NCBI GenBank assembly: GCA_015134395.1
Contig: CP043983.1
Coordinates: 217,295-281,294, forward strand
From: Candidatus Stammera capleta
GTDB lineage: Bacteria; Pseudomonadota; Gammaproteobacteria; Enterobacterales; Enterobacteriaceae
DNA: 64,000 bases
Reading direction: 5' to 3'
The notes beneath the pieces were generated by a model. That model did no database searches. It was not told the DNA's origin and saw nothing but the letters and a program-made list of their open reading frames with translations. A program made the translations under genes and the position numbers. This document shows positions 1 to 18,314 of this stretch, piece by piece (position 1 is the stretch's first letter; every line of letters begins with the position of its first letter).

Positions 1-2123
1 TTTTTTTTTTTTTTTATTAATTTATTATTAGAATAAATTTTTATTATATTTATTTTTTTTATTTTATTTTTTTTAATTAATATACATTCTTTAATAATTT
101 TATTTATTAATATATTTTGATTAATTATAATAGTTATATCTCTTATATTGTTTGGAAATTTTGATATATTTTTTATTTTTTTTATTTTTTTTTTTAATAT
201 AAATTTAATTTTTATTTCAAATAAAAAAACTGAATGTTTTAATTTTAAATATTTTTTTATTTTATTATTTAACATTCCTATATATCCTATTTTTTTTTTT
301 TTATATTTTATATCTAAATTTTGAAATTTATCTAATATAAAATTATTAGATTTACTAAAATTTAATAATTTTATTTTTTTTTGTTTTATAAATATATGTT
401 CTAAGTCTCCTTTTATATCATAATAATCAAATAATTTATTATTTTTAATATATCAATTATTTAAATATTTATTTCCATAAATTATTGAAGCAAGATATTT
501 ATCTTGTTTATTTTTTTTATTTTTTTTTTTAAAACATGTTCCTATTTCAAATATTTTTATATTATCTTGTTGTCTTTTAGTATTAAAGCATAATGTATTT
601 AATAAATTTGGTATTAAAGATGTTCTTAATATTGACATTTTATTAGAAATAGGATTAATTATATTTATATAATTTTTTTTTCTAGAAAATATTTTTTGTT
701 TATATATATTTTCAAAATGAAAATTTATAATTTCTTTATATCCTATATTTGTTAATATATTTTTTATATTATATATTTTTTCAGAATAATTATTTTTTTT
801 TTTTATAATTATTTTTGTTTTAAAATTTTTTATTGGTATTTTATTATATCCATATATTTTTATTATTTCTTCTATTATATCTTCTTTTATATTTAAATCT
901 ATTCTTCATATAGGAATATATATATATATGTAATTATATTTTTTTTTAATTATTTTACATTTTATTTGTTTTATAATTTTATATATTTTATTTTTTGATA
1001 TATTAAATCCTATTTTTTTATTTATATATTTATATGATAATTTTATTTTTTTTTTTTTTATTTTAATATTATTTATATTTTTAATATTATTTATTATACC
1101 TCCATAATGATTTTTAATATTTTTTGCAATATTATATAAAGATATATTTTGTATATTTTTATTAAAATTACTTATATATTTATTTGTTTTATATTTATTA
1201 TTTATACTATTTTTTTTTAAAATTAAATTTTTTTTATATAATGGAGCTATAAAAATTATATTTTTTGTTTTTTTATTTATATATATATTTTTTTTATTTA
1301 AATTAAAAATTTTTTTATTTATATAAAAATTATTATTTTTAATAATTGATATGTTTTTTAATTTATCTAAATCAAAATAAATTATTTCTTGACCTAATTC
1401 TATTAAATTATAATTAATAATATCTTTTATATTATTATAAATATTAAATTGTAAAAATTTTAATTGATTTTTTATTTTATTATTAATATTTTTATTTATA
1501 TTTTTTATATTATTAATAATTATATATTTATAATTTATAATATTTTTTTTAAATTCTATATTTATTAAATATTTATTTTTTTTATATTTTTTATATTTTT
1601 TATTTTTTAATAAAATATTTTTTTTTTTAATTAATAAATATATTTCTCTAGATAAACCATATATATTATTACAATCTATTCTATTATTTGGTATATTTAT
1701 TTCTAAAATATTATTTTTTTCTATAAAATTATTTATTTTTTTTAATTTTTTTTTATTTTTTATATAATATAATATATATATATATTTTATATTAAATTGT
1801 TTTTTTTTTATAAAAAATATTTTTTTTATATTAATTTCGTTATAATTTATTAATATATATTTATTTAATATATTTTCTTTTATATTTTTAATATAAATTT
1901 TTATTTTTTTTTTATTTATTTTAAATTTAATATAAGAAAAATATTTAGAAATTTTTTTTTGTTTTATAACTTTTTTTATTATATATTTTTTATTTTTTTT
2001 TATTGAATTTAATAAATTTTTATTATTAATTTCAAATCCATTTTTATTTAATATATTTATAATATTTTTTATATGTAAATTACTTTTAAGATATTTTCTT
2101 ATTAATATTTCAGAAAATTTCAT
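1..2123 (-). CDS. pheT: Phenylalanyl-tRNA synthetase beta subunit (3' end cut by window edge)
   Basis: Beta chain of the alpha2-beta2 enzyme that charges tRNA-Phe. It begins MKFSEILIRKYL, close to E. coli MKFSELWLREWV, 15 bases after the pheS stop. About 707 codons are open to the left edge, against 795 in E. coli, so the C-terminal anticodon-binding-like domain is incomplete. The segment NNRIDCNNIYGLSRE matches the B1 domain, and YIPIWRIDLNI, with Trp written TGA, matches VPSWRFDI. The B3/B4 editing region is much shortened: the FGG and glutamate segment that binds mischarged Tyr-tRNA is not visible between KKTKNIIFIAPLY and NLILKKNSI. Charging probably works; proofreading is doubtful. The family call is secure. 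Confidence 0.95.
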
Positions 2124-2138
2124 TTTTAATACCAACAA

Positions 2139-3107
2139 TTAAAATTGTTTTAATAATTTTATATTATTTTTATACAAAATTCTTATATCAGATATATTAT
2201 ATTTTAACATTATTAATCTTTCTATTCCTATTCCAAATGCTAATCCTGAATATAATTTTATATTTATATTATTATTAATTAAAATATTAGGATGTATTAA
2301 ACCACATCCTAATATTTCTATTCATTTGTTATTTTTATTTTTTATAAAAACTTCAGCTGAAGGTTCAGTAAATGGAAAATATGATGGTAAAAATTTTATA
2401 TTAATTTTTTTTTTAAAAAAAAATAATATAAATTTTTTAATTATATATTTTAAATTAGAAAAATTTATATTTTTATCTATTAAAAAACAATCTAATTGAT
2501 GAAACATTGGTGTATGAGTTTTATCATAATCTTTTCTAAAAACACATCCAGATGTTATAATTTTTATAGGTGGTTTATTTTTTTTTATATATCTTATTTG
2601 CATACATGAAGTTTGTGTTCTTAATAAATTATTTTTATTTATTCAAAAAGTATCTTTTTTAGTTCTTGATGGATGATATTTATTAATATTTAATGAATCA
2701 AAATTATAATATACATTTTCTATTTCATTTCCTATAATATTTTCAAATCCTAATTTATAAAAAAATTTTTCTATTTTATTTATAGTTAATGTAATAGGAT
2801 GTTTATTTCCTATAATATAATTTCTTCCTGGAAGAAATAAATCTATATATTTATTATCTTTTTTTTTTTCATTAATTTTATTTTTATATAAATTTATATT
2901 ATAAATAATATATTTTTTTATTTTATTAATTTTTTTTCCTAATTTTGATTTTAAATTTTTTGGAGTATTTTTAAGTATATTTAGTAATTTTTTTATATAT
3001 CCTTTTTTTCCTAAATATTTAATACGTATTTTTTCAATTAATTTAATATTTTTAATATTTTTTATTTCTAATTTAAAATTTTTTATATCTTTATTAAAAT
3101 TAAACAT
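2139..3107 (-). CDS. pheS: Phenylalanyl-tRNA synthetase alpha subunit
   Basis: Catalytic alpha chain of PheRS, 322 residues against 327 in E. coli. Class II motif 2 is clear ([19 protein letters not shown]), as are the upstream LPGR stretch and KKDTFW before LRTQTS. The C-terminus carries [14 protein letters not shown], motif 3. Two Trp positions are TGA codons (DTF-W and NK-W-IEILGCG). An N-terminal coiled-coil region rich in Lys and Ile precedes the core. It lies downstream of rplT and just before pheT, as in enterobacteria; the pheM leader is not seen. No anomaly in the active site. Confidence 0.97.
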
Positions 3108-3132
3108 ATTAATTAAAATTTATTATAAATTA

Positions 3133-15808: not shown

Positions 15809-15851
15809 TATTTATATTATTACAAAATTAATAATTTTATTTTTTATATAT

Positions 15852-15960
15852 ATAATTTTTTTTATTTTATTTTTTATAAATTTATTAATAATTTTTTTTT
15901 TTTTTTATAATTTTTTTTATTTTATTTTTTATAAATTTATTAATAATTTTTTTTTTTTTT
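15852..15960. repeat. 55-bp tandem duplication inside the 3' end of leuS
   Basis: Two adjacent copies of one unit: 15852-15906 and 15907-15960, identical except that the terminal T run has 15 bases in the first copy and 14 in the second. Each begins ATAATTTTTTTTATTTTA and contains ATAAATTTATTAATAA. The 55-base period is not a multiple of three, so in the minus-strand leuS reading it moves the frame and brings in a premature stop at 15885-15887. Confidence 0.92.
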
Positions 15961-18314
15961 ATTTTATTTATTATTTTTTCTTTATTATATGTATTTTTTA
16001 TATATATTTTATTTTTAGTTTTTCCATTTATTTGTATAGCAATTTTAATTTTAATTTCTATATTAATATATTTTTTATTAAATTTTGGTCATAATATATT
16101 ATCTATATTTTTTTTATTTTTCATTATATTTCATAAATAAAAACTTATATGAGGTGTAAATGGATATAATAATATAATTATTTTATTTATACATTTTTTT
16201 ATTATATTATAATCAATTTTATTATTTATTTTAAAATTAATAATTTTATTTAAAAAAATCATTATTTTAGATATTGATGTATTTAAATTATTTTTTTTTT
16301 CTATATCGTAAGTAACATATTTTATAGTTTTATTAAGAATATATTTAATTTTTAATTGTTTTTTATTATTTATATTTTTTTTTTTTATTTTTTTTATTTT
16401 TATAAAATTAAATATTAAATTTCATAATTTATTTAAAAATCTATAACATCCTTTTATATTATTTTCATTTCATTCTAAATTTTTTTCTATAGGTGATGAG
16501 AAAATTATAAATAATCTTAATGTATCAGCTCCATATTTTTTAATTATTTTATTAGGATTTACTCCATTATTTTTAGATTTAGACATTTTTATTTTACCTA
16601 CATAAAATAATTTTATATTATCTTTTTTTTTTATAAATTGTATAGATTTATTTTTTTTTATTTTTTTTACTTTATTAAAGTTAACTCATTTTCTTTTATT
16701 ATTTTTTATATAATAAAATGCATCTGATATAACCATACCTTGACAAATTAATTTTTTTATAGGTTCATTTGTTTTTATTAATCCTATTTTTTTTAGAAAT
16801 TTATGAATAAATCTAATATATATTAGATGCATAGTAGCATGTTCTATACCTCCTATATATATATTTATAGGTAATCAATAATTTGCTTTTTTTATATCAA
16901 ACATATTTATTTTATATTTAGGTGATGTATATCTTAAATAATATCATGATGATTCTACAAATGTATCTAATGTATCTGTTTCTCTTTTAAATTTTTTTTT
17001 ATTTATATATACATATTTTCATTCTTTATTTTTTTTAAGAAAATTTGTATAAAATTTGTTATTTTTAATTTTTGGTAATTTAATTGGTAATTTTTTTTTT
17101 GATATAGTAAAAAAATTTTTTTTATAATATAATATTGGAATAGGTACACCTCAATATCTTTGTCTAGATATAACTCAATCTTTAATATTAAATTTTATTT
17201 TTTTTTTAATTAATTTTTTATATATTTTTTTTTTATTAAAAATATTATTATTAATATTTAATATATTTTTAATATTATATTTTTTTATAAAAAAATCATG
17301 TTTTTTATTATTATTTATATTTATTAAAATTATATTTGTATTATATAATTCATTTGTAAAATTTGTTATTCATATAGGTATTTTTTTTTTATTTATAGGA
17401 TTAATTGCATTTAATTTAGTATATATCCCTATACATTTATTTTTATTTTTATTATTATTATTTTTTTTTTTAAATATATTAATTATTTTATTATTTTTTA
17501 TTTTTATAAATTTTATAATTTTATGATTAATTGATATTGATATACATATAGAATTTATTATTAATTCTATTTTAGAAGAAAAAATTTTTATTTTTTTATT
17601 AATTTTAGGTATAAAAAAATTAATTTCTATTCCATTAATTTTACCTATTCATTTTTTTTGCATATTAATTACTTTTTTAGGTCATTTTTTTAATTTATTT
17701 AAATAATAAAATAATTTATTTGCATATTTTGTAATTTTTATGTATCATTGAGATATTTTTTTATATTTAATTATAGAATTACATCTTCAACATTTTCCTT
17801 TAATTACTTGTTCATTAGCTAAAACTGTTGAATCTTTAGGACATCAATTAATTATATCTTTTTTTTTATATATTAATTTTTTATTAAATAATTTTATAAA
17901 AAGTAATTGTTCTCATTTATAATAATTTGATTTACATGTTGTTATTTCTTTATTTCAATCATAACTTATTCCTAAAATTTTAAGTTGATTTTTCATATAT
18001 TTTATATTTTTTTTTGTTCATTTTTTAGGAGATAAATTATTTTCTATTGCTGCATTTTCTGCTGGTAAACCAAATGCATCTCATCCTATAGGATGTAATA
18101 CATTTTTTTTATTTAAACGTTGATATCTTGCTATAATATCACTTATTGTATAATTTCTTACATGTCCCATATGTAATTTACCTGATGGATATGGCATCAT
18201 AGAAAGACAATAAAATTTTTTTCATTTTTTATTTATTTTTGTTTTAAAAATATTTTTTTTTTCTCAATATTTTTGTATTTTTTTTTCTATTTTTATAGGA
18301 TTATATTTTTTCAT
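15885..18314 (-). CDS. leuS: Leucyl-tRNA synthetase, editing site degenerate and C-terminus frameshifted
   Basis: Charges tRNA-Leu. 809 residues (860 in E. coli). The synthetic core is intact: [18 protein letters not shown] (HIGH), [55 protein letters not shown] and [12 protein letters not shown]. The CP1 editing domain is present but its catalytic signatures are gone: TTRPDT is replaced by SSKIEL, GTG by NTN, and the GHDQRD region by NNKKHD. The end is altered: after the conserved QINGK segment the 55-bp duplication shifts the frame and the protein stops after KKKKNY, while the true ending (IIYIKNKIINFVII, stop at 15812-15814) survives in another frame just before holA. Confidence 0.95.

Follow-up and report, generated by a model that had tools for sequence, protein, structure and literature searches.

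Degenerate proofreading sites in three aminoacyl-tRNA synthetases of a reduced enterobacterial genus

Which proofreading sites of its aminoacyl-tRNA synthetases does a reduced genome give up, and which does it keep? This question is raised by a 64,000-nucleotide stretch of DNA, hereafter the window (positions 217295-281294 of a 281,294-base contig), which carries genes for threonyl-, leucyl- and phenylalanyl-tRNA synthetase (ThrRS, LeuRS and PheRS) with altered or missing editing regions. It belongs to a genome of 288,199 bases on two contigs, with a completeness score of 92.87%, and its G+C content is 9-16% in 4-kb bins. An earlier note on this DNA had proposed that the three enzymes have lost proofreading and that the same set of losses in Mycoplasma points to convergent tolerance of mistranslation.

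Results

We searched 40 genomes of relatives together with the window's own; 11 others, of 0.2-0.3 Mb each, were placed in the same genus, giving a sample of 12. The family is enterobacterial, since a member of 5 Mb (G012) has a ThrRS with 94% identity to that of E. coli; a betaproteobacterial origin was rejected on this ground. The thrS and leuS genes contain 28 TGA codons, 26 of which align with Trp in E. coli, and a GH28 match above the cut-off was found in all 12 genus genomes, that of G003 being weak and partial. The traits of Candidatus Stammera, namely an enterobacterial affiliation, a genome of 0.2-0.3 Mb, UGA read as Trp and a GH28 pectinase, are all found here. Stammera is described as a digestive symbiont of tortoise beetles with a reduced AT-rich genome and pectinases, extracellular throughout host development (PMC9043728), which reads UGA as Trp (PMC8629427). 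The 12 genomes very probably represent this extracellular beetle symbiont.

Editing sites were scored at residues that we take to be catalytic, in E. coli numbering: H73, H77, C182 and H186 of ThrRS; T248, T252 and D345 of LeuRS; H265 and E334 of the PheRS beta subunit (PheT); T222, K277 and D286 of valyl-tRNA synthetase (ValRS); T242, H333 and D342 of isoleucyl-tRNA synthetase (IleRS); H564, H568, C666 and H670 of alanyl-tRNA synthetase (AlaRS); and K279 of prolyl-tRNA synthetase (ProRS). Our alignments confirm that each of these residues occurs at its stated position in the E. coli sequence, and C182 of ThrRS and C666 of AlaRS are named as editing residues in the literature (PMC6918089). Scored in this way, the site is intact in 0/12 genus genomes for ThrRS, PheT and LeuRS, in 3/12 for ValRS, and in 12/12 for both AlaRS and IleRS. 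Both E. coli and the 5 Mb relative G012 have intact ThrRS, LeuRS and PheT sites. Loss of ThrRS, LeuRS and PheRS editing in the window's genome and in the whole genus sample is thus strongly supported, as far as sequences can tell. The features concerned, all on the minus strand, are as follows.

3..2138, minus strand: pheT, PheRS beta subunit, 3' end cut by the window start (753 aa in locus L026); Pfam and alignment
1272..1529, minus strand: part of pheT weakly matching the B3/B4 editing domain, residues 204-289; Pfam and alignment, coordinates from residue numbers
2139..3107, minus strand: pheS, PheRS alpha subunit, synthetic site, Ala294 kept; Pfam and alignment
4239..5447, minus strand: thrS, ThrRS of 402 aa, catalytic core and anticodon-binding domain, without TGS or editing domain; Pfam and alignment
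15885..18314, minus strand: leuS, LeuRS of 809 aa with a degenerate CP1 editing domain; Pfam and alignment
17241..17657, minus strand: part of leuS matching the LeuRS editing-domain model PF13603, residues 220-358; Pfam, coordinates from residue numbers
17562..17579, minus strand: SSKIEL replacing the threonine-rich TTRPDT of E. coli LeuRS; alignment, coordinates from residue numbers
17298..17315, minus strand: NNNKKH replacing GHDQRD, invariant Asp345 being His; alignment, coordinates from residue numbers

The ThrRS of the window matches only the Pfam models of the catalytic core and the anticodon-binding domain. It aligns with residues 236-633 of E. coli ThrRS in one comparison and with 239-633 in another; in the latter, against PDB entry 1qf6, the match takes in nearly the whole protein, and shorter PDB chains of some 400 residues, 1evk among them, align as well. 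The thrS frame is open for 405 codons only, and no relic of the editing domain was recognisable upstream of thrS by tblastn in the window's genome (E-values 5.3 and 9.5). The absence of the whole editing region, as first described, is borne out by these data. G009 (L035) stands alone in the genus with a longer ThrRS, of 601 aa, whose N-terminal half can still be recognised; K, Y, Y and N take the places of H73, H77, C182 and H186 there. Its sister G002 (support 100 in two trees, which otherwise disagree on the branching inside the genus) has a truncated ThrRS. Assuming no regain, this implies at least two deletions of the domain within the genus. Among 0.5 Mb relatives, G017 and G021 have a full-length ThrRS with changed editing residues, while the enzymes of G016 and G018 are truncated. 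We infer that the editing domain probably died before it was deleted.

In LeuRS the editing domain has been kept as a fold: PF13603 is matched over model positions 1-144 of 185, and the replacement of TTRPDT by SSKIEL is confirmed by the alignment, as had been noted. The second motif had been given as NNKKHD, which is one residue out of register. We rejected this reading, which would falsely show the aspartate as kept; in register the motif is NNNKKH, with Asp345 replaced by His and Asp342 by Asn in the window's genome. Across the genus, position 345 is His in 5/12, Tyr in 2/12 and Gln in 5/12 genomes. The CP1 domain is present in all 12, with a mean occupancy of 84%. Within-genus identity, calculated with domain limits adopted from the E. 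coli literature, is 0.49 for CP1 versus 0.70 for the core. The CP1 positions held in at least 11 of the 12 genomes include the WIG hinge (223-225), and none of the pocket residues 247-249, 252, 342 and 345 is held to that degree. We read LeuRS CP1 as a presumably dead insert retained for folding or tRNA handling.

The B3/B4 region of PheT scores 26.7 bits for the part in the window and 26.4 bits for the whole protein, under the Pfam cut-off of 29.3. His265 and Glu334, the latter beyond the weakly matching part, are both replaced by Ile, and Gly318 falls in a gap. The site is broken, in agreement with the earlier note, and position 265 is Ile in 11 of the 12 genomes and Met in the remaining one.

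The synthetic sites present another picture. In all 12 genomes, ThrRS has the residues of E. coli at C334, M332, R363, H385, D383, Q381, Q484 and H511, and LeuRS at M40, Y43, D80, F493, Y527, H533 and H537, together with the KMSKS motif. Since the checked synthetic residues of these two enzymes are unchanged, mischarging is to be expected. Ten positions were checked in PheS: P183, P249, T251, A294 and G296 are kept in 12/12 genomes and Q169 in 11/12, and positions 180, 258, 260 and 314 differ from E. coli in 12/12.

The picture of three damaged enzymes holds for ThrRS, LeuRS and PheRS; as a description of the genome it was incomplete, as it missed the degradation of ValRS, the retention of IleRS and AlaRS and the sharing of these states across the genus. 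At least one of Thr222, Lys277 and Asp286 of ValRS is changed in 9/12 genus genomes. This three-residue criterion is lenient: all seven ValRS motif residues checked are kept in 0/12 genus genomes and in 4/4 other reduced relatives (G016, G017, G018 and G021). In the window's genome, ValRS (L084, contig C1 of G000, about 142380-144146, outside the window) shows T222K, R223K, H282F and D283Y and keeps K277 and D286, so that its editing state is uncertain from the sequence. In IleRS, CP1 is 0.57 identical within the genus versus 0.68 for the core (11 genomes), and T241-T243, N250, H333, H338 and D342 are among the invariant CP1 positions. The IleRS of G009 was read from the N-terminal of two fragments, as its ileS frame (L073) is interrupted, leaving stretches of 365 and 387 aa; this is either a real break or an assembly error. 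In ProRS, K279 is kept in 10/12 genomes (Arg in G001 and G010), D350 in 12/12 and H369 in 0/12.

We extended the comparison to 20 other reduced genera of the family, with one genome per genus. The site is intact in 0/20 for ThrRS, 1/20 for PheT, 4/20 for LeuRS, 18/20 for ValRS, 17/19 for AlaRS and 20/20 for IleRS; the AlaRS gene of G017 lies at a contig end and was not read, and G017 was left out of the six-enzyme table. This left 20 lineages, 19 besides the window's genome, for which all six enzymes were read, and an order in which ThrRS, PheRS and LeuRS are lost before ValRS and AlaRS, and these before IleRS, is violated in none of them. Of 5000 within-row shuffles, not one equalled this result, and Cochran's Q reaches 77.7 with 5 degrees of freedom; these statistics ignore kinship, and the order was picked after the table had been seen. 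Sixteen extra reduced genomes were picked by hand from 295, and 13 of these 16 had at most one SAD match, which biases the sample toward ThrRS lost and AlaRS kept. A maximum-likelihood tree, weakly supported in its inner branches, requires at least 1 separate loss for ThrRS, 2 for PheRS, 9 for LeuRS, 3 for ValRS, 2 for AlaRS and 0 for IleRS. A fixed order among ThrRS, PheRS and LeuRS found no support: G019, a genome of 2 Mb outside the tested rows, its Ile and Val genes not being included, retains the HHCH residues of ThrRS and has altered LeuRS and PheT sites.

Thirty further reduced genomes, also hand-picked, were readable for IleRS only; 23 of them have two SAD matches, 4 have one and 3 have none. 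The IleRS site is intact in 28/30, one of the 28 (G150) being a divergent match with 27% identity. The only exceptions are G190 (L244), with H333Y and two SAD matches in the survey of 295 genomes, and G297 (L246, 0.2 Mb), with T242N and H333N. In the same survey, 84 family genomes are of 1.0 Mb or less; 42 show two SAD matches, 38 one and 4 none. These counts are lower bounds, as the ThrRS match of G021 was missed there and found in another search. Half of these genomes having two SAD matches, loss is common but not universal.

Several observations on the same genes and their neighbours deserve mention. Two reduced relatives of 0.2 and 0.6 Mb (L217 in G104 and L216 in G149) encode an AlaRS of about 430 aa without editing domain. 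Two TGA codons stand in frame in the ileS gene of G142 (0.8 Mb, L230), one of them where Trp245 is conserved, possibly reflecting a second lineage that reads UGA as Trp or a decaying gene. A CsrA-like protein of 71 aa (L001, 678-893; named by eye) adjoins alaS as in E. coli. In the window, infC and rpmI, read by eye with translation table 4, lie at 3481-4238 between rplT and thrS; infC seems to be without an ATG, GTG or TTG start. Positions 6454-15039 of the window hold recC, recB and recD, each a long open frame with the Pfam domains expected of it, in a genome of 288 kb.

Discussion

What could have removed proofreading from these three enzymes and spared others? We consider it probable that editing is dead in all three through erosion, weak selection having kept only the sites that are costliest to lose. 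By parsimony, the losses would be old and date from the root of the genus or close to it. Over a long life in one host, selection may have become too weak to keep the least costly proofreading sites, and those lost would be the ones that admit conservative swaps: Ser at Thr, Tyr at Phe and similar aliphatic residues at Leu. The dead domains would have eroded afterwards; the terminal ThrRS domain would have been deleted in most species, and the inserted CP1 of LeuRS, being hinged to the core, would persist as a shell. The ribosome would then receive Ser-tRNA(Thr), Tyr-tRNA(Phe) and mischarged tRNA(Leu) at rates set by the intrinsic errors of the synthetic sites. The retention of IleRS editing may be due to the difficulty of excluding Val and to the rank of Ile as the most frequent residue in this AT-biased proteome, and that of AlaRS editing to the harm that Ser at Ala would do even at a low level; ValRS editing would be partly eroded. 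The 17,293 residues encoded by 37 window frames comprise 17.6% Ile, 9.4% Leu, 6.5% Phe, 2.9% Thr, 2.0% Val and 1.6% Ala, and the high use of Ile suits the retention of IleRS editing. The growth of E. coli mutants, reported as that of the wild type for ThrRS C182A and as poor for AlaRS C666A (PMC6918089), agrees with ThrRS editing lost and AlaRS editing kept.

Several points weigh against this erosion account. Low Ala use on its own does not account for the retention of AlaRS editing, so that the damage done by the swap must also play a part. When an altered tRNA forces Ser at Thr codons to a high level, E. coli is reported to suffer (PMC6918089). The four changed PheS positions make a changed Phe pocket possible, and the species-specific replacements at LeuRS 345 could mean that the loss was partly parallel. 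The idea that IleRS editing is never lost had to be rejected: the IleRS site, altered in 2 of the 30 additional reduced genomes, is not inviolable.

Editing might have been lost and accuracy kept, through synthetic sites that are more selective or that proofread before transfer, so that little mistranslation would result. Precedents exist in ProRS without editing domain and in mitochondrial PheRS (PMC11415595), and a ThrRS without editing domain still proofreads, according to the title of PMC4267643; a missing domain need not mean zero proofreading. PheS position 258, which might touch the pocket, is Phe or Tyr in 12/12 genus genomes, and E. coli and all six aligned relatives have Asp there. 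However, the unchanged synthetic residues of ThrRS and LeuRS and the conservation of PheS Ala294 speak against this explanation, which we consider unlikely. Selection for the loss itself, with mistranslation diversifying surface proteins or helping under stress (a statistical proteome), has been put forward for Mycoplasma and other parasites (PMC7373986, PMC10057733). The symbiont at hand, in contrast, is likely a beetle mutualist of extracellular life (PMC9043728) for which no antigenic conflict is known, and many reduced genera of the family share these losses, as erosion predicts. We regard selected mistranslation as very unlikely here.

Equally improbable, in our view, is that a free-standing protein, whether from the symbiont or from the host, does the editing in trans. 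Each genus genome has one SAD domain, in AlaRS, DTD is absent in 12/12, and PF04073 matches, found in 8/12, all lie in ProRS frames. In the window's genome no free-standing trans-editing protein of the SAD, YbaK/INS or DTD type was found within the sensitivity of the searches, a negative outcome, with that limit, for the refuting condition raised with the initial proposal; PF04073 gave no match there but also missed the INS domain of that genome's own ProRS, so that a diverged helper could escape detection, and the completeness score of the genome is 92.87%. In bacteria, no factor that acts in trans on Tyr-tRNA(Phe) or on misacylated tRNA(Leu) is known to us. As for an assembly or reading-frame artefact, the DNA is very AT-rich and G009 has a broken ileS frame, but the same three sites fail in 12 separate genomes with open frames for all three enzymes; assembly error is ruled out for these enzymes, and the explanation as a whole is barely credible.

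Preferring erosion, we are evenly divided on a broader proposition: that in reduced enterobacterial symbionts the order of loss is set by cost, with ThrRS, PheRS and LeuRS first, ValRS and AlaRS much later and IleRS last, that Ile-rich, AT-biased proteomes make IleRS editing nearly indispensable, and that the genus, its three dead sites joined by a failing ValRS, lies beyond the ceiling of two losses stated for Mycoplasma. The phenomenon and the tendency of these three enzymes to lose editing are already published; the regularity in the order is possibly new. No published statement on the order of editing loss in symbionts was recognised among titles and the starts of abstracts, and a search for Stammera with aminoacyl-tRNA synthetases found work on the genetic code only; neither proves that none exists. 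These comparisons give a family-wide view of which synthetase proofreading sites tend to go and which tend to stay, with natural intermediates such as the dead but undeleted ThrRS domain of G009 and the half-eroded ValRS, and the pattern provides a testable cost ranking for kinds of translation error. If the genus is Stammera, loss in an extracellular mutualist weakens immune escape as a general reason.

Loss of synthetase editing in host-restricted bacteria, with degenerate sites in reduced genomes, was reportedly described by Melnikov et al. in 2018, and the present genus is an instance of it. LeuRS, ThrRS and PheRS are the enzymes observed to lose proofreading, their errors being better accommodated (PMC6918089); the parallel with Mycoplasma and the tolerance of these three losses, as first proposed, are a reasonable likeness, although the idea was already in print there. 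The ThrRS of the window resembles the minimal ThrRS of yeast mitochondria, which consists of the catalytic core and tRNA-binding domain only; that enzyme belongs to a different lineage and, by the title of the report, proofreads (PMC4267643). In Mycoplasma, LeuRS, PheRS and ThrRS are described as editing-defective (PMC7373986, PMC10057733, PMC4014445), and misreading of Leu and Phe codons was detected by mass spectrometry (PMC10057733). The likeness extends to mutated or deleted editing domains in the same three enzymes, a retained synthetic core, a reduced genome and UGA read as Trp. YbaK, ProX and AlaX proteins are reported absent from Mollicutes. Unlike Mycoplasma, the genus belongs to an unrelated enterobacterial lineage and is probably an extracellular mutualist. 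Moreover, PMC7373986 mentions Mycoplasma genomes that lack two of these editing activities and states that none without three or more is known, whereas here, as read from sequence alone, all three sites fail in each of the 12 genus genomes.

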